64,000 nucleotides of DNA. Source: Clostridia bacterium (lineage in GTDB: Bacteria > Bacillota > Clostridia > Acetivibrionales > STF1-152). Both the position numbers and the translations under genes were made by a program. The stretch covers positions 1 through 64,000 of the forward strand of contig JANQLN010000134.1 of the NCBI GenBank assembly GCA_028280575.1, written 5' to 3'. Below the pieces are notes generated by a model. The model was not told where the DNA came from and searched no databases. It was given only the letters and a program-made list of their open reading frames with translations. Shown piece after piece: positions 5,524 through 33,808 of this stretch (positions are counted from its first letter, which is position 1; each line of letters opens with the position of its first letter).

Positions 5524-5654
5524 TTTGTTAAATACCTCCGTTTCAGAAGAACAAATTACCAGGCAATCACCCGATCCGTTCTCTAATAAATTTTATAATA
5601 CACTTAACATATTGCTAAGCTGCCAACATGATAATTATTTATAGGCATAAGCCT

Positions 5655-6242
5655 TCACAGCTTTCCTTTTGTAGACATTACGCCCTCTATTCTGCCATCA
5701 AGCATTGCTGCCTGGTCCAAAGCCCTGCCAAATGCTTTAAAAACCGCTTCTATCCTATGGTGGTCATTATTTCCATAAAATACTCTTACATGTATGTTAG
5801 ACAACGAGTTAAAGGACACCCCATTGAAAAATTCTTTAAAAAGCTGGGTTTCCATGCCGCCTGCCATATCTGTATCAAATTCACAGTTGAATACCATGTA
5901 TGGTCTCTTTCCCAAATCCAGAGAAACCATGGCAAGTGACTCATCCATAGGTACAAAGGCAGTGCCGTATCTCTTTATTGATTTTCTGTCACCAAGGGCT
6001 TTATTTATTGCCTGCCCCAGCACAATACCTATATCCTCAACAGTATGGTGGGCATCCACATGCAAATCCCCTTCTGCTTTAACTTTAAGGTCAAATAATC
6101 CATGTTTTGAAAAAAGCGAAAGCATATGATCTAAAAAACCTATGCCTGTTTCAATTTCAAACATTCCTTTCCCATCAACATTAAACTCAACGGTAATATC
6201 GGTTTCTCCCGTTTTTCTTTGCACTAAAGCCTTCCTTTCCAT
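5655..6242 (-). CDS. hisB: Imidazoleglycerol-phosphate dehydratase
   Basis: HisB dehydrates imidazole glycerol phosphate to imidazole acetol phosphate. The metal-binding histidine motifs of both half-domains are present: HVDAHHTVED (H61, H65, H66) and NDHHRIEAVFKAFGRAL near residue 150. At 195 residues it is the single-function form without a phosphatase domain. GGAGGTG precedes the ATG. It lies 55 bp after hisC. Confidence 0.98.
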   Translation of the reverse strand: MERKALVQRKTGETDITVEFNVDGKGMFEIETGIGFLDHMLSLFSKHGLFDLKVKAEGDLHVDAHHTVEDIGIVLGQAINKALGDRKSIKRYGTAFVPMDESLAMVSLDLGKRPYMVFNCEFDTDMAGGMETQLFKEFFNGVSFNSLSNIHVRVFYGNNDHHRIEAVFKAFGRALDQAAMLDGRIEGVMSTKGKL

Positions 6243-6297
6243 GTTTCACCTCCATAGAACTTTTATTAAGGGTATATTTCGCTGTAATATTAGTATT

Positions 6298-7353
6298 CTA
6301 CAGCAAATTCTTAAGGGTGTCTACAAATACATCCATTTCTTTGTCCGTTCCGATACTTACACGTAAATAACCTGAAATACGCGGCTTGTTAAAATACCTG
6401 ACCAGTATCCCATTTTCTTTAAGCAGCCTGAATATATCAAATGCCTTTGCAGTTTTATGGCTTATAAGAATGAAATTTGCCTTTGAATCAACGACCTCAA
6501 ATCCCATATCTCTTAATTCTGCAGTTATCCTGTCTCTCGTGCTTATTACCATAGAAGATGTTTCCCTGTAATAATCACCATCATCAAATGCAGCAATTGC
6601 TCCTTCCATTGCCAGAGTATCAATGGTATATGAATTAATTGAATCCTTTACCCTTACCAATCCTTCGGTCAATTCTTCACTTCCCAGTGCATAGCCTACC
6701 CTGAGTCCGGCAAGTGACATGGATTTTGACAAAGTCTGCACTACTAAAAGGTTTGGGTATTTACCAATTAATGATACCGCACTTTTTCCTCCAAAATCAA
6801 TATATGCCTCATCTATGATAACCACCTTTTCCATATTGTTTTTTAGTATATCCTCTATGGCATCAAGTTTAAGGTATTTGCCTGTAGGTGCATTGGGATT
6901 TGGTATTATAACTCCGCCATTTTCCTGTTTAAAGCTATCAACAGAAATGGAAAAATTGCTTTTCATTTCAGCATTTATATAATCCAGGCCGTATAGTTTA
7001 CAGTAAACAGGATAAAAGGTATAGGTTATTTCAGGAAAAATAACCTTTTCACCCGGATTAAAAAATGCTTTAAAGGCAAAAGCCAGGACTTCATCCGAAC
7101 CGTTGCCGGGAAAAACCTGACTTGCATTCAGTCCAAAATAACCGGCTATTTTCTTACGGAGCCTTATGCATGTTGGTTCGGGGTAAAGCTTAAGCCTTTC
7201 GCCCGCAGCATTCCTTATAGCATTGATAACCCCGGGTGGCGGCGGATAAGGGTTTTCATTTGTATTAAGCTTTATATATTTTTTGTCCCCCGGCTGTTCT
7301 CCAGGTACGTATGGTTTTAGACCACGAGTTGTTACGCTCCAGTATTTACTCAT
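6298..7353 (-). CDS. hisC: Histidinol-phosphate aminotransferase
   Basis: This fold-type I PLP enzyme converts imidazole acetol phosphate and glutamate to histidinol phosphate. The Schiff-base lysine is K210 in VVQTLSKSMSLAGLRVG. Other family marks are NTNENPYPPPP near the N-terminus, GNGSDE at 83-88 and IIDEAYIDFG at 179-188. Length 351 is normal. The ATG directly abuts the hisD stop codon, with the ribosome site inside the end of hisD. Confidence 0.97.
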   Translation of the reverse strand: MSKYWSVTTRGLKPYVPGEQPGDKKYIKLNTNENPYPPPPGVINAIRNAAGERLKLYPEPTCIRLRKKIAGYFGLNASQVFPGNGSDEVLAFAFKAFFNPGEKVIFPEITYTFYPVYCKLYGLDYINAEMKSNFSISVDSFKQENGGVIIPNPNAPTGKYLKLDAIEDILKNNMEKVVIIDEAYIDFGGKSAVSLIGKYPNLLVVQTLSKSMSLAGLRVGYALGSEELTEGLVRVKDSINSYTIDTLAMEGAIAAFDDGDYYRETSSMVISTRDRITAELRDMGFEVVDSKANFILISHKTAKAFDIFRLLKENGILVRYFNKPRISGYLRVSIGTDKEMDVFVDTLKNLL

Positions 7354-14544: not shown

Positions 14545-16266
14545 CTAATTAATACCCAGCCTTTGTTTGTTTTCCTTCATTTTTTGTGTTTGAATTTCCA
14601 CAATCTTGTCAAACATATTTTTTTCACGGAATTTTATAAAATCATCCAGGATCTTGTCAAATTCTTCGTCTGTTTTGGAAAGTATGAGCTTTGGAAGTAC
14701 TTCCGCCCATTTCAGCTCTATGTTGACATACTTGATACCTTCGTCAGAATCTGCATCCGGTTCCAATGACATATATGCTGCCTGGCTTTTGGCCTTTCCT
14801 TTAGTCCAATCATATTGCTGCTGTACATAATCAACTCTTGGCCACTGCCATTTTTTTGCCAGGAACGGGTTATGGAAATTATAGAAGTAGCCTACTGCAC
14901 CATATTGTTCGTTGAATGCCTTCTTATCTTTTACACGAAAGTCCCAAAGCTCTTTTTTAATAAGGTCCTTACCGTCCTGTTTCTCCCAAGTTACTCCCTC
15001 TTCTCCAAGAATCAAGTCCTGCTGCCCTTCTTCACTGATCATGTAACTGAAAAAACTTATGGCTCTTTTCGGATCCTTGCAGTCCCTGGTTATTTGATTT
15101 ACCAGCCAGCCGTTGATAGCACCTTCTGCAGCTACAACAGGCTGTTCACCTTTTGAGTTGAACATTGCATCAATAGCTGTATACCTGGATTCATAATCTT
15201 TCTCAACAAGCTTTGCATGTGCTGAACCCAGTACTTGATGCAGCAGGGCAAAATATCTGCCCTGTGCCACTTTTTCATCTATTTGCAGCTTGTTGTCGAT
15301 AAAAATATCCATGGATATCAATCCCATTTCATTAGCTTTTCTCAAAGTTTTGAGCCATAAGATGTATTCAGGGTCAGTTCTTCTGTCATAAACCATGCCG
15401 TCTTTTTCAAAGGGAATTGCCAGAAAGTCCTGCAAATACCCGTCCAGATGCCAGTTGCCCTTATCTGTAAACTCCATTGTTCCAAACGGAATCAGCGGCT
15501 TTCCGTCAACTTCCGGAAACTTTTCCTTTGCTGCCTGCAAAGCTTGTAAAAATCCTTCCGGTGTTGTCATATCAGGCTTTCCTATAGCATTATACATATC
15601 ATTTCTTACCAAAAATACCTGATTCCCTTCAACAAGGCTGTTGTCACCCTGTTCCTCAAGGGAAGTCGAAAAATTGGGCCATGAATAAATATTTCCGTCT
15701 GACCTGGTGTACCAGTTGCGAATACTCTCCGGAGCTACTTCATAGAAGTAAGGATCATATCTGTCGGCAAGCTCGTTAAGTGGGTACAGCAAACCGCCTT
15801 CTTCCATGATTTTCACATTATTATCAGCTCTGTAGATAGTTATCAGGTCAGGCATATCTCCGGAAGCTATAAAGATAGTCATTTTTTCATTTTCACTGCC
15901 GGATACGGGAATTATATAGTTTATATCGACGCCTGTCTTGTTTGTAATATACTTAGATGTAGTGTCTTTTCCCCATACCTGTGTAAAGTATCCAAGATTG
16001 ACATACCAATCAAATGTAACAGGTGAGGTATCTTTTTTCCATCCTTCCTGCACCAGGTCTTCTTCCGGGCTTTTTGACCCGCTTTCTTCAGGTGGAGTTT
16101 CTTCATCTTTCCTTGCTGTTTCTTCCTTGCTTTCATTATCACTCTCATTTTGGACATTTTGATTATCTTCCTTGCCGTCATCACCGGCTTTACAGCCTGC
16201 TGCCAAAGAAGCCGTGAGAGCCAGGATTACAAGAAGATTCAACAACTTAAACAATTTTGACCTCAT
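14545..16266 (-). CDS. Extracellular solute-binding lipoprotein (LplA/YtcQ-like)
   Basis: This 573-residue protein starts with a lipoprotein signal peptide ending in SLAAGC, followed by a very acidic, Ser/Glu-rich tether (about 26-70) and a large family-1-like sugar-binding domain. It is the third gene of the operon permease-permease-binding protein, the order opposite to most sugar importers. AAGGAGG precedes the ATG. Family relatives pair with LplB/LplC-type permeases that import oligosaccharides such as pectin or rhamnogalacturonan fragments; the actual ligand is not visible. No ATPase gene is nearby, so a shared MsmX-type ATPase is expected. Confidence 0.92.
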   Translation of the reverse strand: MRSKLFKLLNLLVILALTASLAAGCKAGDDGKEDNQNVQNESDNESKEETARKDEETPPEESGSKSPEEDLVQEGWKKDTSPVTFDWYVNLGYFTQVWGKDTTSKYITNKTGVDINYIIPVSGSENEKMTIFIASGDMPDLITIYRADNNVKIMEEGGLLYPLNELADRYDPYFYEVAPESIRNWYTRSDGNIYSWPNFSTSLEEQGDNSLVEGNQVFLVRNDMYNAIGKPDMTTPEGFLQALQAAKEKFPEVDGKPLIPFGTMEFTDKGNWHLDGYLQDFLAIPFEKDGMVYDRRTDPEYILWLKTLRKANEMGLISMDIFIDNKLQIDEKVAQGRYFALLHQVLGSAHAKLVEKDYESRYTAIDAMFNSKGEQPVVAAEGAINGWLVNQITRDCKDPKRAISFFSYMISEEGQQDLILGEEGVTWEKQDGKDLIKKELWDFRVKDKKAFNEQYGAVGYFYNFHNPFLAKKWQWPRVDYVQQQYDWTKGKAKSQAAYMSLEPDADSDEGIKYVNIELKWAEVLPKLILSKTDEEFDKILDDFIKFREKNMFDKIVEIQTQKMKENKQRLGIN

Positions 16267-16331: not shown

Positions 16332-17234
16332 TCATCCTTTAATCGACCCCATAAGCAATCCTTTTACAAAATATTTTTGCAAAAACGGATAAATTGCCAT
16401 TATGGGTGCAACAGTTACAAACATTGTCGCCATTGATACCGACCGTGAAGTAATCCCCGTACTTTCCTGGATATCAGTGGGAATACCACGCATGATTTCA
16501 TTCGCTTCCGAATTTTGAGCTATTATTTTAAGCATGAAGGTCTGAATGGGCTGCAAGGAAGGATTATTCATATAAATGACTCCCATGAAAAAATCGTTCC
16601 AATTATATACACCTACAAAAAGTGCAATTGTTGCAAGCACAGGTTTGGACAAAGGTAATATGATCCTGGCAAAAATCATGAAATCATTTGCCCCGTCTAT
16701 CTTGGCAGACTCTTCAAGGCCATAAGGTATAGTCCTGAAAAAGGAAGTAAAAATAATCAAATTATAAAAGCTGAACATACCGGGCAGTATATATACCAGA
16801 AAATTATTAACAAGCCCCAGATTCCTGTAAAGCAGATAAACAGGAATAAGCCCTCCGTTAAAAAACAGGGAAACAGTTCCTAAAGCCAGATAGATTTTCC
16901 TTCCAAGCAGTTGCTTTTTTGAAAAGGCATATGCTATCATTGCAGTGAAAAAAACATGTACTGATGTAGCAGTGAATGTCCTCGCAACAGTTACACCAAA
17001 AGCGGTATATATAGCTTTATTTTCAAAGATAGCTTTGAAATTGTCAAAAGTGAATTTCCTCGGGAGCCAGTAAATCCCTCCCAACATTGAGTCCTGTCCG
17101 TCATTGAAAGCCAATACCAGTGTATACCATATGGGATAAAGTGTTAAAAAGCCAATTATCAACATTACCATAACATTCGTATAATCAAATATCTGGTCTT
17201 TCAGTGTGTTTTTCTTGCCAATGTGTAGTTTCAA
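16332..17234 (-). CDS. Carbohydrate ABC transporter permease (LplC/YtcP-like)
   Basis: Inner-membrane subunit of 300 residues with about six helices. The cytoplasmic EAA loop that contacts the ATPase is visible (GLEESAKIDGANDFMIFARIILPLSKP, near 195-220). The C-terminal KGLLMGSIKG ending is typical of this subfamily. The start is TTG 17234, seven bases after AAAGGAGG. It follows the first permease by 13 bp. Confidence 0.95.
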   Translation of the reverse strand: MKLHIGKKNTLKDQIFDYTNVMVMLIIGFLTLYPIWYTLVLAFNDGQDSMLGGIYWLPRKFTFDNFKAIFENKAIYTAFGVTVARTFTATSVHVFFTAMIAYAFSKKQLLGRKIYLALGTVSLFFNGGLIPVYLLYRNLGLVNNFLVYILPGMFSFYNLIIFTSFFRTIPYGLEESAKIDGANDFMIFARIILPLSKPVLATIALFVGVYNWNDFFMGVIYMNNPSLQPIQTFMLKIIAQNSEANEIMRGIPTDIQESTGITSRSVSMATMFVTVAPIMAIYPFLQKYFVKGLLMGSIKG

Positions 17235-17247
17235 GTTTTTACCTCCT

Positions 17248-18189
17248 TTAAAACAAGGACGAATCAGTCAGTTTTTTAGTTATTTCATTCGATCCAAGCA
17301 GCAGCAATAATGCTACAAAAGACCGGAATACTCCAATTGCCGTAGCTAAAGAGTATCTTTGAGTTCTGATTCCAACATTATATACATAAATGTCGATTGT
17401 CTCACTGGCCTGTGAATTTAAAGAATTCCTTAATACAAAAATCTGTTCAAAATTTGACTCCAGCATCCGGCTGACAGTAAGAATAAGAAGTACGGAAATA
17501 GTCAGGCGAATACCCGGGAGGGTAATATTCCACATTTTTCGGAATCTTCCTGCACCATCCATTGTTGCAGATTCATACAATTCAATATTTATCCCGGATA
17601 CTGCAGATATATATATAATACATCTCCATCCTATTTCCTTCCAGATATCCGAAGTTACGACAATGCCCCAAAAGTACTCCGGATAAGCAAGAAAATGCGT
17701 AGGATTTTCTATGATACCGAGTTTTACAAGAATGGTGCTTATTAATCCGATGTCTTCAAGCCACACCATCAGGATACCTCCAAGCACTACCCAGGAAATA
17801 AAATGAGGCAGGTATGAGACAGTTTGAATAATTCTTTTGAATTTCAATGAGCGTAATTCATTTAAAAACAATGCAAAAATAATCGGCAGCGGAAAACCAA
17901 TAACCAATCTCCAGAAGCTGATGCCTAATGTATTTTTCATTACCCTAAAAAAATTATCGCTCTCAAAAAATTCAATAAAATATTTGAATCCCACCCAGGG
18001 CGCTTCGGAAACAGGCTTGAGAATATTGTAATCCTTAAATGCAATAGTTATACCATATATGGGCAGATACACAAAAATAATTAACCATGCTACACCCAGT
18101 AAAGACATTGCCTGCAAATATTTTTGATTATTCAGGATTTTTAGTTTATTACGGATTTTATGTTTTCTACTGGTCAATTTAATTAACAA
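17248..18189 (-). CDS. Carbohydrate ABC transporter permease (LplB/YteP-like)
   Basis: First gene of the importer operon, 313 residues, about six membrane helices. The EAA loop is near 205-230 (ELYESATMDGAGRFRKMWNITLPG, with the conserved Gly). The start is uncertain: TTG 18189 directly follows AAAGG, while TTG at 18177 has better spacing. The promoter at 18255-18317 carries the motif shared with the beta-helix gene, so both are probably controlled together. Confidence 0.93.
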   Translation of the reverse strand: MLIKLTSRKHKIRNKLKILNNQKYLQAMSLLGVAWLIIFVYLPIYGITIAFKDYNILKPVSEAPWVGFKYFIEFFESDNFFRVMKNTLGISFWRLVIGFPLPIIFALFLNELRSLKFKRIIQTVSYLPHFISWVVLGGILMVWLEDIGLISTILVKLGIIENPTHFLAYPEYFWGIVVTSDIWKEIGWRCIIYISAVSGINIELYESATMDGAGRFRKMWNITLPGIRLTISVLLILTVSRMLESNFEQIFVLRNSLNSQASETIDIYVYNVGIRTQRYSLATAIGVFRSFVALLLLLGSNEITKKLTDSSLF

Positions 18190-18254
18190 CCTTTCATTTC
18201 ATTTAAAATAAGCTTGAATATATGAATTACCGCACTGCATCTTGATACGTATAA

Positions 18255-18317
18255 ATTATAACATACCTAAGCACTCCGATATAGATATACAAATTATAGA
18301 TAAGGTATAAACTTTTT
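18255..18317 (-). promoter_or_regulatory. Promoter and conserved upstream motif of the LplB-type operon
   Basis: On the minus strand AAAAAGTTTATACC (18304-18317) is followed by a partly conserved ATC-N-ATAATTT-N-TAT block and then a TGTTATAATTT -10 region (TATAAT at 18255-18260). The motif starts 57 bp before the -10. The same elements recur with a 56-bp offset at 20809-20870. No good -35 hexamer is seen, which fits an activator-dependent promoter. The YesN-like regulator encoded at 23451 is the obvious candidate. Confidence 0.7.
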
Positions 18318-18341
18318 AGCATGTTCATTTTTTTTGCATTA

Positions 18342-18381
18342 AAAAAAGTGCTGCTTAAAAACACTTTCACAGCACTTTTTT
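18342..18381 (-). terminator. Terminator of the beta-helix gene
   Basis: A 12-bp perfect stem, AAAAAAGTGCTG against CAGCACTTTTTT, lies about 40 bp after the stop of the minus-strand beta-helix gene. The stem is flanked by T runs on the minus strand. It separates this gene from the importer operon promoter. Confidence 0.85.
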
Positions 18382-18421
18382 ATATTAATACCCTTCAATA
18401 AATTACTATATATGCATAGGT

Positions 18422-20752
18422 TTAATACATCAGGCCCCAGCCCTGGTATGGAGAAGAAGGGTCCAGCCTTAAATCATCTGTCATGTTGGCTGCAGGTGTC
18501 CATACTGCTGCGGCGGTCGTTGGATTTTGCCCTGTATTTGTACCGGGTTGAATACATTCATATAATTGTCCCTCACCCGGTTCGCCTACCTGCATCATGA
18601 CGCAATCGCCATATTCATAATAAAGAGGCACATTGTAAAGCTGGGAATAATCATCCCATATTTCCACCTTCTTATAATCAAAGCCTGCCGGGAATGTTGT
18701 ATCCCTGAATATCACAGGATCTATGCTTGATACCATCTGGTTGCCTGCTGCATATAAATTTCCCAGATTACCGTTATCGGCAAAAATCTCATCCAGCAGA
18801 ACAACATTCCCTTCCCTTATATTGTTGTTGAAATGCAGCGGATTGCAGTCATTGTTCTGTGAATGTATCAACGAGCCATGAGCAGGGGTTCCCGCCGGGA
18901 TATTATCCGTAGGATCTCCATATTCATATTCAATATCGTTTATTACGTTGTTTTCGAATTTCAATATTGATGACTCATTTCTTGCCCAAGAATATGAAGA
19001 CAGGCCTATATACGCCAGCATTCTCCTGCCGCTTGAGAAGTAATTGCCATGTATCAGCACCTGGTCTTCACCTGGAACCAGAACATCCGTATTTGGGTCC
19101 TGGTAGAACATGAAGCTCAACAGCGTACTGCCTCCTATGAATATATTATTGTAAATTTCACCGCTTCCATCCCTGTGGTAATACTGGAAGCAATGGTCCT
19201 GCCATTGATGAAAAGGATCCTTCCAATCAAGTGCACTAAATGCAATCACATTGTTGTAGACCTTAAGTCCGTCTCCTATTTGTGAAAGCTGCAGTCCTTC
19301 CGTACCGGTTCTTATAATCCTGTTATTATATATTTCAAGGTTCGTGAACTTGTGTTGTTTTGTTGTATCCTGAGAGGTACTGCCGATATACATGCCTTCA
19401 GATTCTACATCATGTATATAAAGATCATGGATTTTTACATTATCCATTATTGCGGCCGGGTCGTTATCTGTTTTTATCAAAAGCCCTGCAAAGCCGTTGA
19501 ATGAATATTCCATATATGACAGTTCAAAATCCGTAGACCCCAGGCTTACCGTCAAACCGGATTCTTTAGTATGGCTAACCTGTATACCATAACTGCCGGC
19601 AGAATTTGCATAGTTTCCGTTCAGATGGCCCTGATAATTCACATCCCCGGTTTGCATTGCAGGGTCATACTTGCCGGTGAGTATCCAGTTTGAACCCCCT
19701 GTGAATTTCATACCATAGTAATGGTCTCCGGATACATATACCTGTCCGTCTTTATTTGTAATAATCAAAGGCCTGCCTGCACTCCTTTGAGGCAGATTGC
19801 CAATCCTGATATATTTATAAGCTCCTGCTGGAATATAGAGCCTGTCCAGGGTTTGCCAGTCTACACCGGGGAAAGAGCCCTGGATATCAAAATATGCGAT
19901 ATGATCTGTCCCGGGTGATGGTGCGGGCAACGAAAATACATTCAAGCCTGTAGGTGTCGGAGCAGGAGTAGGGGTTGGCGTGCTGACAGGAGTAGGGGTT
20001 GGCGTGCTGACAGGAGTAGGGGTTGGCGTGGCCGTACTGCCGGGAGTTGGAGTAGGTGTAGGAACGGGTGTTGAAGCTGCTCCGTTGACCGACACATTAT
20101 CAAACACTGCAGTGCTTAAAGTCCCGTCCAGATTTGACGTTACCGCCATACCAATTTTTACATCAGCCGTCATTGAAATATATTGATCCTTGATCAGGTT
20201 CCAGCCGGTTCCGTCTGTAGAAATATATCCTCTCAAATTATTGCCTATCCTTTCCAGCTTAAGCCAAATTGGCAGTGTGTCCAAATGGGTTCCATAATTT
20301 GTTGTGATGGTATTACTTCCGGTGCCGGTCCTGTAGGAAGATTGAATATGATTGGCCGCGCCGGGTATTCTTGATACATAATAGTTTTTTGAATTTGTAT
20401 CCAAAGTCTCCCGTATCATGATTCCCGCTTTTGCATAGTCGCTTGTATTCTCCTGTGATATCAGCCTGACAACCATGCTGCAATCTCCTGTCACTGTCTG
20501 GTAAACATACCTGAATTCATCAGAAGCTCCGCCTATGTCCAATCCTGAACCCTCTATGTTGAATTCACCGGTTGAAAAGCTGTATGATGCTGTTCCTGCC
20601 ACACCGACCGCACCTATATCACCTGTTGACCAGGGAGCAGGTATGGCTTCTGCCGAAACGGTAACCGGACCGCTTGCAGCAATTACAATACCGAACATAA
20701 TACATATGATCAGCAAATAAACCAAAGACTTTTTCATATTCCCTTCTGACAT
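18422..20752 (-). CDS. Secreted protein: beta-sandwich domain, Pro/Thr linker, right-handed beta-helix
   Basis: This 776-residue protein has a signal peptide (about 6-34, ending near VSAEA). An N-terminal domain (about 36-225) resembles the DUF1349/concanavalin-like family. A Pro-Thr-Ser linker (about 228-275) follows, then a long right-handed parallel beta-helix (about 285-700) of the kind found in polysaccharide lyases and glycoside hydrolases; repeated NNxI and IHGNxF turns are visible. No dockerin, SLH or cell-wall anchor is seen, so it is probably released. I cannot assign a reaction; pectin or another uronate polysaccharide is likely from context. AAAGGAG precedes the ATG. Confidence 0.85.
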   Translation of the reverse strand: MSEGNMKKSLVYLLIICIMFGIVIAASGPVTVSAEAIPAPWSTGDIGAVGVAGTASYSFSTGEFNIEGSGLDIGGASDEFRYVYQTVTGDCSMVVRLISQENTSDYAKAGIMIRETLDTNSKNYYVSRIPGAANHIQSSYRTGTGSNTITTNYGTHLDTLPIWLKLERIGNNLRGYISTDGTGWNLIKDQYISMTADVKIGMAVTSNLDGTLSTAVFDNVSVNGAASTPVPTPTPTPGSTATPTPTPVSTPTPTPVSTPTPTPAPTPTGLNVFSLPAPSPGTDHIAYFDIQGSFPGVDWQTLDRLYIPAGAYKYIRIGNLPQRSAGRPLIITNKDGQVYVSGDHYYGMKFTGGSNWILTGKYDPAMQTGDVNYQGHLNGNYANSAGSYGIQVSHTKESGLTVSLGSTDFELSYMEYSFNGFAGLLIKTDNDPAAIMDNVKIHDLYIHDVESEGMYIGSTSQDTTKQHKFTNLEIYNNRIIRTGTEGLQLSQIGDGLKVYNNVIAFSALDWKDPFHQWQDHCFQYYHRDGSGEIYNNIFIGGSTLLSFMFYQDPNTDVLVPGEDQVLIHGNYFSSGRRMLAYIGLSSYSWARNESSILKFENNVINDIEYEYGDPTDNIPAGTPAHGSLIHSQNNDCNPLHFNNNIREGNVVLLDEIFADNGNLGNLYAAGNQMVSSIDPVIFRDTTFPAGFDYKKVEIWDDYSQLYNVPLYYEYGDCVMMQVGEPGEGQLYECIQPGTNTGQNPTTAAAVWTPAANMTDDLRLDPSSPYQGWGLMY
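19963..20028 (-). repeat. 24-bp tandem repeat in the linker of the beta-helix protein
   Basis: Two identical 24-bp units (19981-20004 and 20005-20028) and a preceding 18-base partial unit encode the Pro-Thr-Ser linker. The repeat is in frame, so slippage would change linker length in steps of eight residues without a frameshift. Confidence 0.9.
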
Positions 20753-21117
20753 AAATATACTCTCCTTTCACTTTACAAATATTGGATTGAATAACGCCAT
20801 TCATGGAAATTATAACATTTTGATGTTTAAGAAAAAGACATATAAATTATTGATTGGGTATAAACTTTTTGTACATTCCCTTTTTTACACCGCATATAGT
20901 ACAAATTTAAACAGCATCTAATAAAAATTTGCACAAGTTAAGTGCCGGAGAACGCTTTTCTTGCGGAATAACGTGTCTTACCTGCCGGAAGGACAAAACA
21001 GTGTACCAACTCCACAAAGCCACGGGAACGGCACAGCAATGACGGACCCGTAACACTTGAGCGGGATAAAGTGACGAAAAGCTTTGCGTACAGGACTTTT
21101 CAAGCGCACTCTTATAA
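20753..21117. other. Intergenic region with a GC-rich block
   Basis: The left part (20753-20870) is the beta-helix promoter. The right part (about 20933-21110) is clearly richer in G and C than its surroundings, has no open reading frame with a ribosome site, and contains short complementary blocks such as GTGCCG (near 20943) and CGGCAC (near 21034). On the minus strand it resembles the extra hairpin segment of the repeat at 1-178. It could be a repeat remnant or a structured RNA at the 3' end of the sensor-kinase message. Confidence 0.45.
20809..20870 (-). promoter_or_regulatory. Promoter and conserved upstream motif of the beta-helix gene
   Basis: AAAAAGTTTATACC (20857-20870, minus strand) and the ATAATTT block lie 56 bp upstream of TATAAT (20809-20814), almost the same layout as at 18255-18317. 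The -10 is again inside TGTTATAATTT. The start codon is about 57 bp downstream of the -10. Confidence 0.7.
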
Positions 21118-22944
21118 TTACTGGTAAGGGATTGTCATCCTTACTTTTGTATAATATCCTTTTGCACTCATAATTTCCAGTCCGTATTCATTTCCATAGT
21201 AAAGCTTGATTCTTTCATTGACATTTGCAAGTCCGATACCGCTTCTTTTGCCTTCTTTATTGTCAGGGATGGTATTTATCTTGCCCCTTATCTGCTCCAG
21301 GGTATCCTTGCTCATCCCGGTTCCATTATCCACTACTTCAATATGGATTTTTTTATCCGTCCTGCGTCCGGAAACCAGAAGATTCCCTTTTTCCTTTTTA
21401 GATTCAAGGCCATGTATTACTGCATTTTCAATAATTGGCTGCAGGGACATTTTCAATATTTCGCATTGCATTATTTCCTTTTCCATATCCAGTCTGAATT
21501 GAATCTGGTTATCATACCTGATGTTTACAAGGGATATATAGTCTTTTACAATTTCAATTTCTTCTTTTAACGGTACATTCCTTCTTTTCCAGCTCATACT
21601 GTATCTCATAAGGTTGCCCAGGGATGTAAGCGCATCAGATATTTCATCCTGGTAATTTATTTCTGCCATCATTCTTATATTCTCCAGAACATTATAAATA
21701 AAGTGTGCGTTAATCTGTGACAGCAAGGCACGAACTTCTGCGTCTTTGGTAGTTTTCTCTTTTCTGACCAGATTAAAAATCAATTCATTGATTTTTTCAA
21801 GCATGCTTCCAAAATGATAAGACAGCTCACCGATTTCGTCATCTTTTGCAATGGGTATTTGCACATCAAGATTTCCTTTTTGTACTTTTCTCATGGCAGC
21901 AATTATGACCTTTATCTTCTTCAATAACGTAGAGGTTATAAAATAGGTTACAGCAGACATTAACAATATGACTAACGCGCAGACTATTATTACAATTTTT
22001 CCTATGCTACTTAGTTTTTGTATTAAAGGCTCTGTTGAGTAGATGAAGAACATACTGCAGCCGAGTTCTTCTATTTCATCTTTCATAAGAATCATTTCAT
22101 TTTTATCCAAGGAAAAATAGTAAGGTTCAATTTCGTTTGATTCAACAAGTGTCTTTGACAGCTCGGATATATTCAATCCGTATTTTTTTAAAAAAATACT
22201 TTGATTGTTAATGATCAAGTTATTTTCACTATCCAAAAAGCATACCATAAGCTCACCGCTTTGGTTCTGGCTGTACAAATCTCCCCAAAAAATATCGGAC
22301 AGCATTGATATTTCGATTATTCCAATATGCCTGTTAACGGAATACCTGATTTGCTTATATAGTGAAACCTTATCCAATGATTTTTCGTCACTTTGGATAC
22401 TGCCCGGATGGTTAAAGCTCCAATAGCTTGTGTTTCTATGTGTGAACCGGCTGCGTATGTAATCCTTTTCTATCATTTCCTCTTCCTTATAAACAGTCCT
22501 CCACATTTGTGGAAAATGTGGATTATCCAAAAATATTCTCAGTTGATGTATATCAGGATTAATATTTGTGATATTTTGAATGTGCCGTATATCATTCCTG
22601 AAAAACTCAAATACAGTGAGTGTATCCGGCTCTTCTTTCTGGCTGATAAGATGTATAAATTTTTCGTTGCTGATAATACTCTGGACTGTTTTATCGCATA
22701 TTTCAATATTCCTTTTGATTTGCATTTTAATGCTCTCACTGCTTTGACGGATTAGCTTGATGATATCCGATTCAACACTTTTTTTCTCACTGTTATAATA
22801 ATATATACCAAAAAATGTTACCAAAATAATCAGAACACAAGTATGGTACAGTATCAATTTCCTGGCAAGCCCGATTCTCTTGAGCCTGAAATATATTTTT
22901 TTACCGGCTTTTTTAAATATAAAAAAAAGTCGCAAATTTAACAC
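21118..22944 (-). CDS. YesM-type sensor histidine kinase
   Basis: This 608-residue membrane kinase has helices at about 29-50 and 315-337 enclosing a ~265-residue extracellular sensor. A HAMP domain (about 340-395), the phospho-acceptor H414 in QINAHFIYNVL and an ATPase domain with DNGTGMS and RSGIGLANVNER follow. The start is GTG 22944, five bases after AAGGA. It is divergent from the AraC-type response regulator at 23451 and lies next to the beta-helix and importer genes, so it probably senses a sugar or a sugar-bound binding protein outside the cell. Confidence 0.95.
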   Translation of the reverse strand: MLNLRLFFIFKKAGKKIYFRLKRIGLARKLILYHTCVLIILVTFFGIYYYNSEKKSVESDIIKLIRQSSESIKMQIKRNIEICDKTVQSIISNEKFIHLISQKEEPDTLTVFEFFRNDIRHIQNITNINPDIHQLRIFLDNPHFPQMWRTVYKEEEMIEKDYIRSRFTHRNTSYWSFNHPGSIQSDEKSLDKVSLYKQIRYSVNRHIGIIEISMLSDIFWGDLYSQNQSGELMVCFLDSENNLIINNQSIFLKKYGLNISELSKTLVESNEIEPYYFSLDKNEMILMKDEIEELGCSMFFIYSTEPLIQKLSSIGKIVIIVCALVILLMSAVTYFITSTLLKKIKVIIAAMRKVQKGNLDVQIPIAKDDEIGELSYHFGSMLEKINELIFNLVRKEKTTKDAEVRALLSQINAHFIYNVLENIRMMAEINYQDEISDALTSLGNLMRYSMSWKRRNVPLKEEIEIVKDYISLVNIRYDNQIQFRLDMEKEIMQCEILKMSLQPIIENAVIHGLESKKEKGNLLVSGRRTDKKIHIEVVDNGTGMSKDTLEQIRGKINTIPDNKEGKRSGIGLANVNERIKLYYGNEYGLEIMSAKGYYTKVRMTIPYQ

Positions 22945-23450
22945 CCAATTCCTTTTTGAATCTGACCATAATATATAAAATACCTCATAGAGCTGCTATA
23001 TGAAACGGCTTTAATTTTTACATTATGGGCCTTTCAGATACACGGTTCCAGTGGATTTCAAAGGCTATAATGCTTTGAATTATAACGTTGCATATAATAT
23101 ATTATATTTTATCATATTTAAAACTATAGTAAATGATTAATTATTGAAAATAAGTTTTTTTAGGGGCTGTTTTTTTTGGATTTGGTAAAAATAATTTGGG
23201 AATTTGCCTTTAGATAAAATATTGGAAATAAGTTTATCAGGATTTCTTTATTCTATAAATCTTTTATTTTATTGCCTTTTAAAGCGCCTATATCAATTAG
23301 CGGTGGGTTACTTAAAAAATTCAATAAAGGGAAAATGTGCTTTAAATTTAAAATATTGGTTATTTAAAATATTGAAACGTTATTTGTATTATGATAGTAT
23401 TAGTCTGTAGCCTTAAAAAACACCAATATACAACGATTGGAGGAGTTTTA
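22945..23450. other. Divergent promoter region between sensor kinase and regulator
   Basis: This 506-bp AT-rich stretch holds the promoter of the plus-strand regulator (23372-23400) and presumably that of the kinase, for which GTTATAATTC near 23079-23088 is a weak -10 candidate. A short hairpin with GCCTTT/AAAGGC arms lies near 23031-23067. No gene is seen. Confidence 0.5.
23372..23400 (+). promoter_or_regulatory. Promoter of the YesN-type regulator
   Basis: TTGAAA (23372-23377) and TAGTAT (23395-23400) are separated by 17 bp, about 50 bp before the ATG at 23451. Confidence 0.6.
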
Positions 23451-24992
23451 ATGAGAAAGCTTCTAATAGTCGACGATGAAAAAATGATTAGAATAGGGCT
23501 CAAAGCAATTATTGAAAGGGAAAAAACCACTTTTACAAAAGTATATGAAGCTTCCGGTGCGGATGAAGCATTGGACATTCTTGCAAGGCAATCAATCGAC
23601 CTGACCATTACAGATATCCGGATGCCGGGAATTAACGGGATTCAATTCATAAAAAAAGCAAAAAAAATGGATATAAAAACCAATTTCATTATATTGAGCG
23701 GATATGAGGATTTTCAATATGCAAGGGAAGCTATCAAATATGGTGCAAAGGATTACTTGCTAAAACCTGTTAAAAAAAATATCCTGTTCAAAACACTTCG
23801 TAACCTGGAGCGGGAACTGGATGAAAAAGACAGCCTCAAAAATCAGCTTGACAATATTCACATTTTTAAGACCCAGTGTTATGAAAATCAATTGAATTAT
23901 ATCTTTACAGCTAAGCAAATAAATGAATATGAAATAAAAAACATATTGGATGTCATGGGAATCGGACTCTTTAGCAAAGCATTTTATGCAGCTGTTTTTG
24001 CTGCCAGCAGCCAGAGTGGTTTGATACTGGAAGAAATAAATAACCTTAATACATCAAAATCAAATGCTGTTAGTTTCATAAATAAAGACGGGCACATTGT
24101 AATGGCCGGAAAGAGCCTGCGGCTTATTGAAGAAACTGCAGGTTATTTGAAAAACGAATTAAAGAAAAAAATTACTGTTGGAGTGAGCAGCGAAGGGAAT
24201 GGAATAAAAGACATACAAAGGGCATATTGCCAGGCATGTGAAGCGGTAAAACATAGAATATTCGTACACCTGGGGTATTTCATTGGCTTTAAGGAAATTG
24301 AAAAGCTGGATAAAAACTTTCAAGTACCTGTCAAGCTCATAAAGAAGCTTATTGAAATTCTGGATACAAAAAATGTATCTGAAATCAAAAATGCACTGGA
24401 TAAAATTCTGGATATAAAGGTCATATCCGGATACAATATAAAATATCTTGAAAATACAGCCCGGTATTTGAGTCAATATATGATGGAATACTGCAAAAGC
24501 AGGATTCCACAGCAGTTCAAGGAATCTATGAATGATAAAGAAAAGCTTTCAAATATCTACAATTATCAAAGTATTGATGAATACAGGCAAGCAGTATATG
24601 ATCATATGCTGCAGATAAACAGGTATTTGCACTCTTTGGAAAAAGGTATTTATTACAGCAAAAACGATATTGACCTTGCCATACAGTTTATAAAGGAAAA
24701 TATAAACAAGGACCTGACATTGCAGGAGGTGGCTGACCATGTATACCTTAATTATTCCTATTTTTCCCACCTTTTCAAGGAACGTACAGGTAGTAATTTT
24801 GTAGACTGCCTGAAAAAGCTGCGTATAGATAAAGCAAAGGAATTACTCCGGATAAGGAGCTATAAAATCAAGGATGTTGCAGAAGAAGTAGGATTCAACA
24901 ATCCTAAATACTTCACAAAGGTATTCAGAAATGTAACAGGTATCTCTCCCATGGAATATCGCAACGCCTCTGCAAGTGATGACAATTCTTGA
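23451..24992 (+). CDS. YesN-type response regulator (REC + AraC HTH)
   Basis: The protein has 513 residues from the ATG at 23451, six bases after a GGAGGAG site. The receiver domain (1-120) has the acidic pair D8/D9, phospho-acceptor D55 and K105 in YLLKPVKK. A ~280-residue middle region of the kind found in YesN proteins precedes the C-terminal AraC-type double helix-turn-helix (about 410-510, with VGFNNPKYFTKVFRNVTGISPMEYR). It is divergent from its likely partner kinase. Its targets are probably the two promoters that share the AAAAAGTTTATACC motif. Confidence 0.95.
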   Translation: MRKLLIVDDEKMIRIGLKAIIEREKTTFTKVYEASGADEALDILARQSIDLTITDIRMPGINGIQFIKKAKKMDIKTNFIILSGYEDFQYAREAIKYGAKDYLLKPVKKNILFKTLRNLERELDEKDSLKNQLDNIHIFKTQCYENQLNYIFTAKQINEYEIKNILDVMGIGLFSKAFYAAVFAASSQSGLILEEINNLNTSKSNAVSFINKDGHIVMAGKSLRLIEETAGYLKNELKKKITVGVSSEGNGIKDIQRAYCQACEAVKHRIFVHLGYFIGFKEIEKLDKNFQVPVKLIKKLIEILDTKNVSEIKNALDKILDIKVISGYNIKYLENTARYLSQYMMEYCKSRIPQQFKESMNDKEKLSNIYNYQSIDEYRQAVYDHMLQINRYLHSLEKGIYYSKNDIDLAIQFIKENINKDLTLQEVADHVYLNYSYFSHLFKERTGSNFVDCLKKLRIDKAKELLRIRSYKIKDVAEEVGFNNPKYFTKVFRNVTGISPMEYRNASASDDNS

Positions 24993-27970: not shown

Positions 27971-29287
27971 TCATTCTGATGATAATTCAAGCCATAGAGC
28001 ATTCAATTCCTTTCCAACTTCACTTCTATCCTTCAAGCCTGCTATATAAGCCTGTATTATTTTTCCTCCGCCTTCGGAAAATCCGTCGGGCCATGCTGTA
28101 TCAGCCCAGGAATATGCAGATGAATCAGATAAAATTTCATTAACGGAGTTAACAAGCATTCCGTCGGGCTCAACAGGAACATCTTTTAAGAGTAAAACCC
28201 ATCCGCTGTCTACTACCGTATAGTTCATTCCGCTTTCCGAGGTCAAAAAGTAATCAATCGCTTTTATAGCCGCGTCTTTATTTTTGCTGGTCGAGCTCAC
28301 TTTTAGAACAGAGGAAACAGATGAAGAAATTCTTGCATCATTCGGGTCATTTGAAACAGGAACCGGCAGAAAAGCTACGTCAACATCAGGATTTGCTTTT
28401 ACAAGAACAGGCTCACACCATTCACCCATGTGCATAATTGCAGCCTTACCAACGGCTAGATTTACTTCCTGCTCTTCCCAACCGGTTTCAAGCGGTTTGG
28501 GCAATCCGTATTTTACTGTTAAATCAATATAATCCAGGTAGTTGTTAAAATATTTCATTGTATCAAATGTTAACTCTCCATTTGTCAGCTTGCTTGCAAT
28601 TTCATCAGGTGTTCCGCCGCCGGCCATAATAAAGGGTGAAATTTGATGCTGGAAAACAACCCATGTTTCTTTGTATCCGTTGGAAAATGGCGTTATACCT
28701 TTATCTGCCAGTATTTCACATACATTTTCCAGTTCTTCGAGTGTTTTTGGAATCTCCGTAATACCCGCATCTGCAAATAGCTTTTTATTGTATATTAATG
28801 CATAGCTTTGAATATTGGCGGGCAATCCCACTAATTTATCCCCGACCCTGCAGAAATCCAGGGCCCAATCCAGGAATTTATCTACAATGGGCTCATTTGA
28901 TAAATCATATGAAAATTCAGCATAAGTAACATTATCCGTGCCTGCACCGGTCATAAAAACATCAGGTATTTCTCCTGCGTTTATTTTAGTTTTAAGCACC
29001 GTAGTATAGTCATTTGCTACATGCTGTACTTCCACTTCAATGTTTTCTTTATCTTTTAATTCATACAATACTTTATCCCAATTTTCCAGGTCGATGCCTG
29101 CATAGTCAATCCAGCTTATCCTTACAGGGTCTTTTGTTTCCTTGCTTTCTTCCTTACTCTCTTCTTTCGTTTCAGAGCTTTTTGTACTGCTCGGGTCTCC
29201 GTCTGAATTGTCCTTTTTATTACAACCGACAAACAAGGACGAAAAAACTACCAAAACCAGTAAAATTGAAAAGATTCTTTTTAACAT
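27971..29287 (-). CDS. Extracellular sugar-binding lipoprotein
   Basis: This 438-residue family-1 solute-binding protein begins with a lipoprotein signal (SSLFVGC, cysteine about residue 22) and a Ser/Lys/Glu-rich tether. The body has the usual sugar-binder layout, with GEWCEPVLVKANPD and SSVSSVLKVSSTSKNKDAAIKAIDYFLTSE blocks. It is the first gene of the operon binding protein-MalF-MalG-UroD and follows the YesMN pair on the same strand. The neighbouring GH51 enzyme suggests arabinose-containing oligosaccharides, but this is inference. Confidence 0.93.
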   Translation of the reverse strand: MLKRIFSILLVLVVFSSLFVGCNKKDNSDGDPSSTKSSETKEESKEESKETKDPVRISWIDYAGIDLENWDKVLYELKDKENIEVEVQHVANDYTTVLKTKINAGEIPDVFMTGAGTDNVTYAEFSYDLSNEPIVDKFLDWALDFCRVGDKLVGLPANIQSYALIYNKKLFADAGITEIPKTLEELENVCEILADKGITPFSNGYKETWVVFQHQISPFIMAGGGTPDEIASKLTNGELTFDTMKYFNNYLDYIDLTVKYGLPKPLETGWEEQEVNLAVGKAAIMHMGEWCEPVLVKANPDVDVAFLPVPVSNDPNDARISSSVSSVLKVSSTSKNKDAAIKAIDYFLTSESGMNYTVVDSGWVLLLKDVPVEPDGMLVNSVNEILSDSSAYSWADTAWPDGFSEGGGKIIQAYIAGLKDRSEVGKELNALWLELSSE

Positions 29288-29335: not shown

Positions 29336-29391
29336 ATTATATTACAAATGCAGATTTAAAAAAGGTAACATATTGAATGTAAATGGTAACA
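29336..29391 (-). promoter_or_regulatory. Binding-protein promoter with two direct repeats
   Basis: On the minus strand two identical TGTTACC heptamers (29364-29370 and 29385-29391) lie exactly 21 bp apart, two helical turns. The nearer one is about 22 bp from a TATAAT -10 (29336-29341) and covers the -35 position. This is the layout of an AraC-family activator site. The regulator encoded directly upstream (29562-30287) is the likely binder. Confidence 0.6.
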
Positions 29392-29399
29392 AAACGTAT

Positions 29400-29566
29400 A
29401 CTAGTACCTTGCGTCACCTAAAAGTATTGTTTTGCAACGGTCTGATTTTCGCAATACATCGTTGTCGTCAATCGGAATACGGAAAATATTCCTCAATCCT
29501 CCGCCTTGTCTTGCAAAAATCATCCTCGCCGCAAATCCAATATTTTAAATGACGCAAGGTACTAGT
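29400..29566 (+). repeat. Complete 167-bp inverted-repeat element (MITE-like)
   Basis: The ends are perfect 17-bp inverted repeats, ACTAGTACCTTGCGTCA and its complement. TAT trinucleotides flank both sides and may be a target duplication. The interior matches 1-178 in reverse orientation but lacks that copy's 48-bp hairpin segment. There is no reading frame of note. The right end supplies the stop codon of the response-regulator gene at 29562. Confidence 0.8.
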
Positions 29567-30287
29567 TATTTTTCGAGACTTTTTTTGCAGAATAACCAAA
29601 ATATTTTTTAAAAGCTTTACTGAAATAATTACTGTCATTGAAGCCTACTTTATCAGATACTTCCTGTATTTGATAGTTATAATTGGCCAACAGGTATTTT
29701 GCTTTTTCCATCCTTAATTGCATGACATACTCATATATACCTATTCCATATGCAGCTTTAAACTTTTTTAAAATAGATTCTTTTGACAGGTAAAATTTTT
29801 GTGAAATATAATCAAGGCTTATTTTTTTTGTATAATTATCTTCAATATACATCTTAACCTCTGATGCATAATTTGTTCCATCCGCCTCTTTCTCAGCATT
29901 GACAGGTTTCTTATTTTTTACAACATCAACGGCTTTTTTCAAAATAGATTTTAATTCCTCAGGATTGACCGGCTTCAATAAGTAATCCAGTATCCTTGAT
30001 TTTATTGCCTGCCTTGTATATTTGAAATCATCATATCCACTTACAATTATAATCTCCGGTTCCGATTCCAGCTCAGAGCATTTCTTTAAAAGGTCTACCC
30101 CATCACTGTATGGCATATTCATATCAGTCATGATTATATCCGGCCTCTCTTTTTTGACTATTTCAAATGCCGTTAACCCGTCACGTGCCTCAACAATTTT
30201 TGTAATTCCCAATTCCCGCCATTGCACAATTTTTTTTACTGTCTCAATAAAATGTTCTTCATCATCGACAATAAGTATTGTATACAT
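29562..30287 (-). CDS. Compact AraC-type response regulator
   Basis: This 241-residue protein joins a receiver domain (D8/D9, phospho-acceptor D55, K105) almost directly to an AraC-type DNA-binding domain (about 140-235). It lacks the long middle region of the other YesN-type regulator here. Its ATG overlaps the kinase stop codon (TGATG). The TAG stop lies within the terminal inverted repeat of the element at 29400-29566, so the last residues may have been altered by that insertion. Likely target: the direct repeats at 29364-29391. Confidence 0.94.
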   Translation of the reverse strand: MYTILIVDDEEHFIETVKKIVQWRELGITKIVEARDGLTAFEIVKKERPDIIMTDMNMPYSDGVDLLKKCSELESEPEIIIVSGYDDFKYTRQAIKSRILDYLLKPVNPEELKSILKKAVDVVKNKKPVNAEKEADGTNYASEVKMYIEDNYTKKISLDYISQKFYLSKESILKKFKAAYGIGIYEYVMQLRMEKAKYLLANYNYQIQEVSDKVGFNDSNYFSKAFKKYFGYSAKKVSKNN

Positions 30288-32080
30288 CAGCCAAGCTCCT
30301 TTATGCTTATTTTTATATTGACATTAAAGCCTTTCATGTAAACACTTCCAATTTCAAAGCTTATGTTATCGTTAAAGAGCAGTTTTAACCTCTGATATAA
30401 GTTAGCCAGTCCAATGCCTGAATGCTCTTTGTATATTAGTGATTCGTCAAATATATCTTTTTTAATTTCCATCAGCTTTTCTTCCGTAACGCCAAGACCA
30501 TTGTCAGATACCTCAATTTCAAGATGCTCTTCCCTTATCTGTGCGGTAAGGCTTATAGTAACCGCTTCTGTTGTAGTCTCTATTGCATATTTGATTGAAT
30601 TTTCCACAAGCATTTGAAAAAGCATCCTTGGTATTAAAAAATCCAATACATTATTATCTATTTTATATTCAACGTTAATTCTTTCACCAAGCCTTAACTT
30701 ACACAATTGAATATATGAATTTATATATTCAATCTCTTCATAAACAGTAGTCATTGTATTTTTATTAATCTTGTACCTGAACGACAAAGCAAGTGCCTCA
30801 AGCATTTTTCTAATTTTTTCCTGTTTGTTTTCAATGGCAATACCTGATATCGCCTGCAAAGTATTATATAAAAAATGTGGATTGATTTGAACTTCCAGCG
30901 ACTTTAAAATAGCATTTTTTTCACTCAGCTTAAGCCTGTACTTCTCGTTTATTAATTCCTTTATTTTTTTAGTCATAGAATTGAACTGCCTTGTCAATTG
31001 TCCAATCTCATCATCACTCTCATTTTCAATGATAGCATCAAAATTCCCTTCCCCGACCAAATCCACATATTTAAAAAGTTCTGAAATACTTGAAGCCATT
31101 CTTTTAAAAATAATAACAAATAAAAATACTATAATTATTGTAAACAAAAATATTACAAACAAGCCAAATGAAAATACGCGCTTTATACTTGAAGCAAAAT
31201 ATTCCGATTTAACCAGCTTAACTATTGTCCAACCGCTTTTTGTTGAGCGGCTTAACACTTTTATATATGATTCATTTTTCAATTTTACATACCGGTTATT
31301 GTCATTGGTCAATTCATCCCTTAAATCATCGCTGCTAATAATCTCCGTGAGCTTATGAGTATCCTGTGAGGTTGAATAAAACAAAGTTCCTGCTTCATTA
31401 AACAGGTATAATTCTTCATTATTGTATACCTTTGCAAAATTCATAAAGCTTTCCATAATATCTTTCTCAATATAAATATTTACTATTAATTGAGTTTCTT
31501 TATTTAAAATATTGATAATACTTCTTCTAAATACCATAATGCTTTTATTATCATAGCTGCTTTGACTAACTTCAAAAAATGGTTCAATATATGCAAAATC
31601 ATCTTTATTTTCCAGTTCCTTATACCAAAAAGCCTCTGAATAATCTTCTGTTTTAAGAACCAGATTATTTTTATCCAACAAAAACAGCCTGCTCGCTTCA
31701 GGTATATAGAACTCAATCTTGCTTATGCCAAACTCCTTAATTTTCGAATAGTCAATAAGGCCCAGCTGGTCTTTGACTTCAAAGGAATAATTGGCAGTTT
31801 TCATTTTGTTTACCAGCTCTTCATTATTTCTTATAATCAATGACAGTTTACTGATTTGCTTGATGTAGTTTTCAAAATTGTTTGAAACGATATCCAATAT
31901 TTTTGTATTATAATCCACAAATGAGTCTTTCAGGGTTTTGGTGGAAAAATAATAATAACTCAGTGTCAATATGAATGCAAAGGATAAAAATAAAACCAGC
32001 GAAATGGCAATAAGTTTATTAGAAATTTTATTCTTAATATATTTAACATAAATTTTTTTTGCCCCTAAAAAATATTTCAT
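30287..32080 (-). CDS. YesM-type sensor histidine kinase
   Basis: This 597-residue kinase has membrane helices at about 21-45 and 303-326, an extracellular dCache-like sensor between them, a HAMP domain (about 327-380), phospho-acceptor H402 in QINPHFLYNTL and an ATPase domain with DNGLGVTEE and SGIGLANLYQRL. AGGGGATC precedes the ATG. It is cotranscribed with the regulator downstream and lies between the arabinofuranosidase and the importer operon. Confidence 0.95.
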   Translation of the reverse strand: MKYFLGAKKIYVKYIKNKISNKLIAISLVLFLSFAFILTLSYYYFSTKTLKDSFVDYNTKILDIVSNNFENYIKQISKLSLIIRNNEELVNKMKTANYSFEVKDQLGLIDYSKIKEFGISKIEFYIPEASRLFLLDKNNLVLKTEDYSEAFWYKELENKDDFAYIEPFFEVSQSSYDNKSIMVFRRSIINILNKETQLIVNIYIEKDIMESFMNFAKVYNNEELYLFNEAGTLFYSTSQDTHKLTEIISSDDLRDELTNDNNRYVKLKNESYIKVLSRSTKSGWTIVKLVKSEYFASSIKRVFSFGLFVIFLFTIIIVFLFVIIFKRMASSISELFKYVDLVGEGNFDAIIENESDDEIGQLTRQFNSMTKKIKELINEKYRLKLSEKNAILKSLEVQINPHFLYNTLQAISGIAIENKQEKIRKMLEALALSFRYKINKNTMTTVYEEIEYINSYIQLCKLRLGERINVEYKIDNNVLDFLIPRMLFQMLVENSIKYAIETTTEAVTISLTAQIREEHLEIEVSDNGLGVTEEKLMEIKKDIFDESLIYKEHSGIGLANLYQRLKLLFNDNISFEIGSVYMKGFNVNIKISIKELG

Positions 32081-32332: not shown

Positions 32333-33808
32333 TTATCCAAAGGTTAAAACTGCAACAGACGATGACGGCGCTTTCACAATATATTTACCCTGCTGCAGTA
32401 TTATTTTATCAAATACATCAGGTGCTATAGCCTTAGGCTTTTCAAAAGTATTATGGCAATCAATGGTGTCTGATGTTAAAATTCTACCTTCAATAAAGCT
32501 ATAATCTTCTCCCCTCATCTCAATGCACACTGCTGCACTATCCTTGTGCGACAGATTTACTAATGATAAAAACACCTGGCCGTCTTTTTTGGATGCAGAC
32601 ACAGATATATGCGGCAATTTGCTGCCTTCCATTATATATTCACCTGGATCATAACTGATGTCCAGCAAGTCACTATCGTGGTATTTTGTATACATTTCGA
32701 AAATATGATAGGTAGGTGTTTTAATCATTTTTTCGCCGTCTGTTAATACTAATGCCTGCAATACATTAACTGTTTGCGCAATATTTGCCATTGTAACGCG
32801 CTCATTATGATTATGGAATATATGAAAGTTTAAAGCAGCTATCAATGCATCGCGCAAGGTGTTTTGCTGATATAGGAATTTTGGGTTTGTCCCAGGTTCT
32901 GCTTCATACCATACACCCCATTCATCAACTATTAGCTTAACTTTCTTTTCCTTATCATAAACATCCATTATTGCAGAGTGTCTTGAAATAAGCTCTTCCA
33001 TATATAAGGTTTGTTTCAATGTAGTAAACCATTCTTTTTCATTAAAACCTGTTGCCGGACTTTTGTCTTCAAAATTGCCGCTCGGTATGGTATAATAGTG
33101 CAATGCCAGCGCATCCATGTAATTTCCTGCTTCTCTCATCAACACTTCCGTCCACCTGTAATCATCGTCAGAGGGTCCGCAAGCTATCTTATATAAAATG
33201 TTATCATCATAATTTCTGCAATATTTCTGGTATCTGCGATATAAATCTGCATAATATTCCGGGCGCATGCACCCTCCGCATCCCCAGCTCTCATTGCCTA
33301 CACCAAAATATTTTAAAGGCCAACTATTTTCCTGTCCATTTTCTCTCCTGAGATCGGACATTGGAGATTTTCCACCAAAGGTCATATATTCTATCCACTG
33401 ACTCATTTCTTGCACTGAACCGCTGCCGACATTTCCGCATATATATGGCTCACATCCGAGGATTTCACAGAGTTTAAAAAATTCATGGGTACCAAAGGAA
33501 TTGTTTTCCGTTACATTTCCCCAGTGAGTATTTACCATTGACGGACGCAAAGATTTTTCACCTATGCCGTCCATCCAATGGTATTCATCGGCAAAACAGC
33601 CGCCAGGCCATCTAAGTACAGGGATTTTAACTTTTTTTAATGCTTCCACAACGTCCAAACGCATACCGTCTACATTAGGTATATCTGAATCATCCCCAAC
33701 ATAAATCCCACCATATATACACCGCCCTAAATGCTCTGCAAAATGGCCGTATATATTCTTGTCTATTCTTCCCTTTTTTATGTCTGTATTAATTTTTACA
33801 TTATGCAT
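32333..33808 (-). CDS. abfA: Alpha-L-arabinofuranosidase, GH51
   Basis: This enzyme releases terminal arabinose from arabinan or arabinoxylan oligosaccharides. The acid/base E173 (VGNESWG) and nucleophile E296 (IVDEWGVW) are in place, as is the [14 protein letters not shown] block near 65-78. At 491 residues without a signal peptide it is the usual cytoplasmic GH51, acting on imported oligosaccharides. It has its own promoter (33865-33894) and a palindrome in the leader, and is divergent from an ArsR-like regulator gene. Confidence 0.96.

Follow-up and report, generated by a model that had tools for sequence, protein, structure and literature searches.

The window analysed here, a 64,000-nucleotide stretch of a contig from a Clostridia bacterium, carries an importer operon, a gene for a secreted protein and a pair of two-component genes side by side. 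The importer operon lies on the minus strand and starts with an LplB-type CUT1 ABC permease gene (17248-18189), whose product is 53-60% identical to its counterparts in the closest orthologous operons. It is followed by an LplC-type CUT1 ABC permease gene (16332-17234) and by the gene for a solute-binding lipoprotein (SBP; 14545-16266, lipobox LAAGC), for which no Pfam match was found and which is orthologous to the SBPs of beta-1,3-glucan loci. A secreted beta-helix protein is encoded at 18422-20752 on the same strand; it consists of a signal-like N-terminus, a DUF1349 module, a Pro/Thr linker, a right-handed beta-helix and a weak CBM5/12-like C-terminus. A terminator-like hairpin with a U run (about 18342-18381, minus strand; -16.5 kcal/mol, z -3.13) is placed 3' of the beta-helix gene and 5' of the candidate importer operator described below. 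Because this hairpin ends the beta-helix transcript ahead of the importer promoter, the two promoters serve separate transcription units. The two-component pair comprises a YesM-type sensor histidine kinase (21118-22944, minus strand), with HAMP, His_kinase (PF06580) and HATPase_c domains all above the Pfam cut-offs, and a YesN-type response regulator (23391-24992, plus strand), with a receiver domain and a C-terminal AraC-type HTH. A G+C-richer block of about 180 bp (20930-21115) separates the beta-helix promoter from the end of the kinase gene; no long ORF, Rfam match or internal repeat was detected in it.

The initial annotation had noticed that the importer and beta-helix promoters share a long motif. 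The 14-mer AAAAAGTTTATACC was indeed found exactly at 18304-18317 and 20857-20870, both on the minus strand, and the similarity extends beyond it to a 35-mer, AAAAAGTTTATACCNNATCNATAATTTNTATNTCT (18283-18317 and 20836-20870, minus strand), over which the two sites are identical at 30 of 35 positions. Read on the minus strand from 18317 to 18283, the candidate operator of the importer operon is AAAAAGTTTATACC TTATCT ATAATTTGTATATC T, with half-sites at 18304-18317 (AAAAAGTTTATACC) and 18284-18297 (ATAATTTGTATATC) that are 20 bp apart. That of the beta-helix gene, read from 20870 to 20836, is AAAAAGTTTATACC CAATCA ATAATTTATATGTC T, with half-sites at 20857-20870 and 20837-20850. Both promoters contain an extended -10 (TGTTATAAT), present as TGTTATAATTT at 18253-18263 (TATAAT at 18255-18260) and at 20807-20817 (TATAAT at 20809-20814), again on the minus strand. 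Counted from the first base of the site, TATAAT starts at 57 nt in the importer promoter and at 56 nt in the beta-helix promoter. No sigma-70-like hexamer pair reaching the threshold of 9/12 ended at either -10, meaning that an acceptable -35 is lacking in both. The 57/56 spacing and the poor -35 noted earlier thus hold as described.

A genome-wide scan for the motif had been proposed as a check. With up to three mismatches allowed, the 35-mer occurs three times in the whole 4.35-Mb genome, so that exactly one further copy exists, outside the window and in front of a glycoside hydrolase gene. Reversed-pattern controls of the 35-mer gave no match in the same genome at the same tolerance. A slightly degenerate form of the 35-mer gave no match in 57 other genomes of the order, and its controls gave none either. 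The upstream regions of all window genes and of the third target were also compared pairwise without gaps (51 regions of 200 bp, 1,275 pairs). At a length of 35 bp, the three promoters formed the top three pairs with 30, 29 and 29 identities, while the next-best pair reached 26 and the mean over all pairs was 20.9 (sd 1.4). Sites as A+T-rich as these might in principle resemble one another by chance, or through a recent duplication of promoter DNA, without any shared regulator. We regard this as very improbable, because identity is restricted to the 35-mer and the -10 with a dissimilar spacer between them, and because the third copy precedes a gene of related function on a different contig while the controls stayed at zero. 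Chance similarity and promoter duplication were therefore both rejected on the genome copies, the zero controls and the pairwise upstream comparison. The candidate regulon with a shared operator suggested by the initial annotation is accordingly supported and gains a third genomic copy.

The third site is located on contig C15 at 4874-4908 (L003/L007), 118 bp 5' of the start codon of a gene for a 420-aa protein, and reads AAAATGTTTATATC AAATCA ATAATTTGTATACC T. Its promoter has the extended -10 TGCTAATAT 57 nt along, as in the importer promoter. The gene comes after recA-like and recX-like genes (named by eye from their translations), a setting that by itself gives no hint of a sugar system. 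Pfam and NCBIfam gave no hit for the protein. It matched GH50 beta-agarase structures (4bq2, E 3e-34), and both GH50 catalytic glutamates, whose roles were taken from PMC11079163, are retained within TDNEL and ITEFSF; the protein was placed at the level of the GH50 family. Its N-terminus is MGQYFSTKKVDGKWF and carries no signal peptide, which makes a cytoplasmic location of the GH50-like enzyme probable. Two other Clostridia have a GH50-like gene near a related LplB-LplC-SBP importer, directly downstream in one (L140) and two genes downstream in the other (L146). The third target therefore makes sense independently of the motif by which it was found. Operator and gene context thus agree from separate directions, which suggests that GH50-like enzymes and this importer type belong together.

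When the first 14 bases of each site were matched to the second block at an offset of 20, the three sites scored 9/14, 8/14 and 10/14. Scores at least this high are reached at 1.3%, 4.0% and 0.2% of the intergenic positions of the window, respectively (0.013, 0.040 and 0.002). Summed over the three sites, offset 20 was the best, with offset 18 close behind (7, 9 and 8); because the latter is nearly as good, the half-site register is not fixed. The inner block stops 22-24 bp before the -10, which is the -35 region. A direct repeat abutting the -35 region is what one expects of a site for an AraC-type class-II activator. Two layout features of an AraC-type operator are present here: two direct half-sites about two helical turns apart, the inner one at a poor -35. 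The site therefore reads best as a direct repeat with a period of about 20 bp in the arrangement of an AraC-type activator. In C. bescii, the sites of AraC-type two-component regulators have been described as tandem repeats that are separated by large spacers and lie 5' of promoter elements (PMC8579813), and the site found here fits this description.

The initial annotation had also linked the motif to the neighbouring YesMN pair. In a GTDB scan, the closest full-length relatives of the window response regulator were six Paenibacillus proteins (30-31% identity, E 1e-69 to 1e-74), ahead of a next group at about 26% (E 1e-43). All six are encoded in operons of the order lplB-lplC-SBP-kinase-regulator, whose importers are 57-59% (LplB), 56-59% (LplC) and 46-47% (SBP) identical to those of the window. 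Closer relatives within the same class, accompanied by the same importer type, were found in G066 and G182 (38%), in G020 (33%) and in a paralogous operon of the own genome (36%). The regulator gene shares an operon with the importer in Paenibacillus, in G066 and G182 and in the own paralogue, and is nearby in G020. Linkage of a YesMN pair to a CUT1 LplB/LplC/SBP importer is thus conserved in other genomes. The paralogous LplB-LplC-SBP-kinase-regulator operon lies on contig C103 (L141), where genes for a GH3 enzyme and a homocysteine S-methyltransferase-like protein precede it; its SBP is 40% identical to that of the window, and its promoter is devoid of the 35-mer.

Comparable repeats precede these orthologous importers. 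A block CGAAATTTGCGACC..GGAAATTCGCTACC or similar is kept before lplB in six of six Paenibacillus species, where the DNA further upstream is unalignable. It forms a direct repeat with an offset of 21 that ends about 23 bp before TACAAT, and the pattern occurs once per genome. At the same place before the importer, G066 and G182 have TAAAAAATTGACACCAAAAACAAAT in common. Relatives of the YesN protein are thus encoded with importer orthologues that bear a repeat in the corresponding position, so that the regulator clade, the importer clade and such a repeat travel together. The three sites, their spacing, their rarity, their gene contexts and the conserved repeats before orthologous importer operons are all direct observations, and they make the neighbouring YesMN pair the likely regulator of the three promoters.

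The genome encodes a large set of 137 AraC-type HTH domains (PF12833), so this assignment is likely rather than proven. If the 35-mer is a true operator, its regulator might instead be another AraC-family protein encoded elsewhere, with the YesMN pair controlling something else. The number of HTH domains speaks for such an arrangement, as does the fact that the kinase and regulator genes are divergent and that no 35-bp site was found upstream of either. So does the behaviour of the orthologous sites: the orthologues' own candidate sites are conserved within Paenibacillus and within the genus g33, but a cross-genus matrix does not recover the window sites. With a matrix built from the orthologues' candidate sites, of which those other than the Paenibacillus ones were chosen by eye near a -10, the window half-site ranked about 100th and the full site about 750th-1050th of some 128,000 positions scanned over the window. 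This points to a code that has diverged, or to errors in the candidate alignments. We nevertheless consider another regulator unlikely, as the YesN clade travels with the importer clade in several genera and comparable repeats stand before lplB. The link drawn by the initial annotation, an AraC-type site worked by the neighbouring pair, is thus well supported though indirectly, by the direct-repeat layout and by the company of YesN relatives, orthologous importers and comparable repeats; the matrix result and the 137 HTH domains keep it short of proof.

An adjacent module of the window contains an SBP gene (27971-29287), permease genes, a response regulator gene (29562-30287) and a kinase gene (30287-32080). 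At 29364-29391 on its minus strand, a perfect direct repeat, TGTTACC-N14-TGTTACC, has an offset of 21 and lies about 22 bp before a TATAAT-like -10. This repeat probably serves the second YesN-type regulator, as a different code at the same place. Because the adjacent module has its own repeat at the matching position, each of the two neighbouring YesMN pairs may have a code of its own.

Taken together, we propose a three-operon carbohydrate-utilisation regulon run by the neighbouring YesM/YesN pair, with a probability of roughly 0.7. The membrane kinase (21118-22944) would sense an extracellular oligosaccharide, either directly or via the binding protein, and would phosphorylate the AraC-type response regulator (23391-24992). 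A dimer of the regulator would then occupy both direct half-sites, which are spaced by about 20 bp and of which the inner one ends 22-24 bp upstream of the -10. From the -35 region it would recruit RNA polymerase to an extended -10 promoter without a -35, that is, by class-II activation. The responding units would be the LplB/LplC/SBP importer, the secreted beta-helix protein and the GH50-like enzyme on the other contig. Together these units would cover a secreted step, uptake and hydrolysis inside the cell for a single glycan, most likely beta-1,3-glucan. Binding, activation and ligand in this model are what we infer.

The initial annotation had called the beta-helix protein an enzyme; its fold family and DUF1349 module could be recognised, but no enzyme family could be assigned. 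Among 391 Clostridia genomes, relatives were found for the N-terminal module only and none for the beta-helix part, which gave weak matches to plasmids of Flammeovirgaceae and Salinibacter. A PDB sequence search with the protein returned no match, and an AlphaFold model of the beta-helix domain alone had a pLDDT of 40, too low for use. The beta-helix part could possibly represent a new enzyme family or a horizontal acquisition.

The identity of the glycan was approached through the importer. The window SBP falls into a clade (97/96 support) that holds SBPs from loci with beta-1,3-glucan enzymes. The neighbours of these SBPs include GH161 (Paenibacillus; G362), GH94 and GH16 (G362), GH16 (G182), a CBM56 protein (G170), GH3 (the own paralogue) and GH5 (G145). 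GH161 enzymes are phosphorylases of beta-1,3-gluco-oligosaccharides and co-localise with ABC importers (PMC6484121). Most characterised GH50 members are beta-agarases, and members of the subfamilies GH50_2 and GH50_3 are beta-1,3-glucanases (PMC11079163); through these subfamilies the importer context and the GH50-like enzyme can be reconciled. Against beta-1,3-glucan, the own genome gave no match to GH161 in a search run without a positive control, though it holds two GH16. At L135, an orthologous importer is accompanied by a gene for a 680-aa protein (5075-7117, minus strand) that unites CBM56 and CBM6 with a GH26-like region and may be an enzyme for beta-1,3-glucan.

The same regulon and regulator could also act on a beta-galactan, an agar-like glycan or a pectic side chain. 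Importers that are sister to that of the window and lie beside GH50 also adjoin GH2 and GH35-like genes of beta-galactoside type, which makes a galactan a possible glycan. A further sister importer has GH53 as its neighbour. The predominance of beta-agarases among characterised GH50 enzymes points the same way, as does an arabinofuranosidase encoded nearby at 32333-33808, though in another module. The importer itself, however, groups with those beside beta-1,3-glucan enzymes, and the scan of window proteins around the module brought up no uronate enzyme. By our judgement, which was not computed, beta-1,3-glucan is somewhat favoured, and a galactan-type glycan keeps a smaller though appreciable chance. 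The pectic or uronic substrate of the initial annotation is improbable by the same judgement: no uronate or pectin enzyme was recognised among the targets, among the window proteins scanned around the module or beside orthologous importers, which adjoin GH161, GH94, GH16 and CBM56 instead. A bolder and rather doubtful extension of the beta-1,3-glucan (or galactan) reading is that, inside the cell, the GH50 enzyme takes the place usually held by GH161/GH94 phosphorylases and that the beta-helix protein founds an undescribed polysaccharidase family, both under one YesN operator.

A promoter resemblance seen by eye has thus become a defined three-operon regulon with a 35-bp operator. The regulon reading was right and gains a third member, the assignment of the regulator is probable, and the substrate guess should change. 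The regulon also gives a lead on what two unassigned proteins do, namely the secreted beta-helix protein and the GH50-like enzyme. In a genome with 137 AraC-type HTH domains, using operators to connect remote genes with a local sensor pair is one of the few ways to group unclustered glycan genes.

The type of circuit, a YesMN-controlled importer together with glycanases, is already known. In AviRS of Caldicellulosiruptor bescii, as in the window, a local histidine kinase and an AraC-type regulator adjoin an importer; importer and secreted glycanase are both predicted targets of the pair, and the AraC-type sites there, tandem repeats, are read as activator sites (PMC8579813). AviRS is concerned with cello-oligosaccharides (PMC8579813), unlike the window system, which further differs in having one target on a different contig, a secreted beta-helix protein without an enzyme family, and divergent kinase and regulator genes. 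XydR of Clostridium cellulolyticum, a 532-aa AraC-type response regulator, activates glycanase genes and binds upstream of its own cluster as well as at a distant locus; the XydS/XydR targets share direct repeats near the -35, and no site was found upstream of xydS (PMC3572039). In contrast to the window system, XydS/XydR responds to straw and controls the xyl-doc genes (PMC3572039). Compared with the GH50 family (PMC11079163), the third target agrees in its match to a beta-agarase structure and in both catalytic glutamates, and differs in its length of 420 aa and its missing signal peptide. The Paenibacillus GH161 loci (PMC6484121) resemble the window in having an orthologous LplB-LplC-SBP importer with a kinase and a regulator, there beside GH161, whereas the window genome gave no GH161 match and the intracellular enzyme of its regulon is GH50-like.
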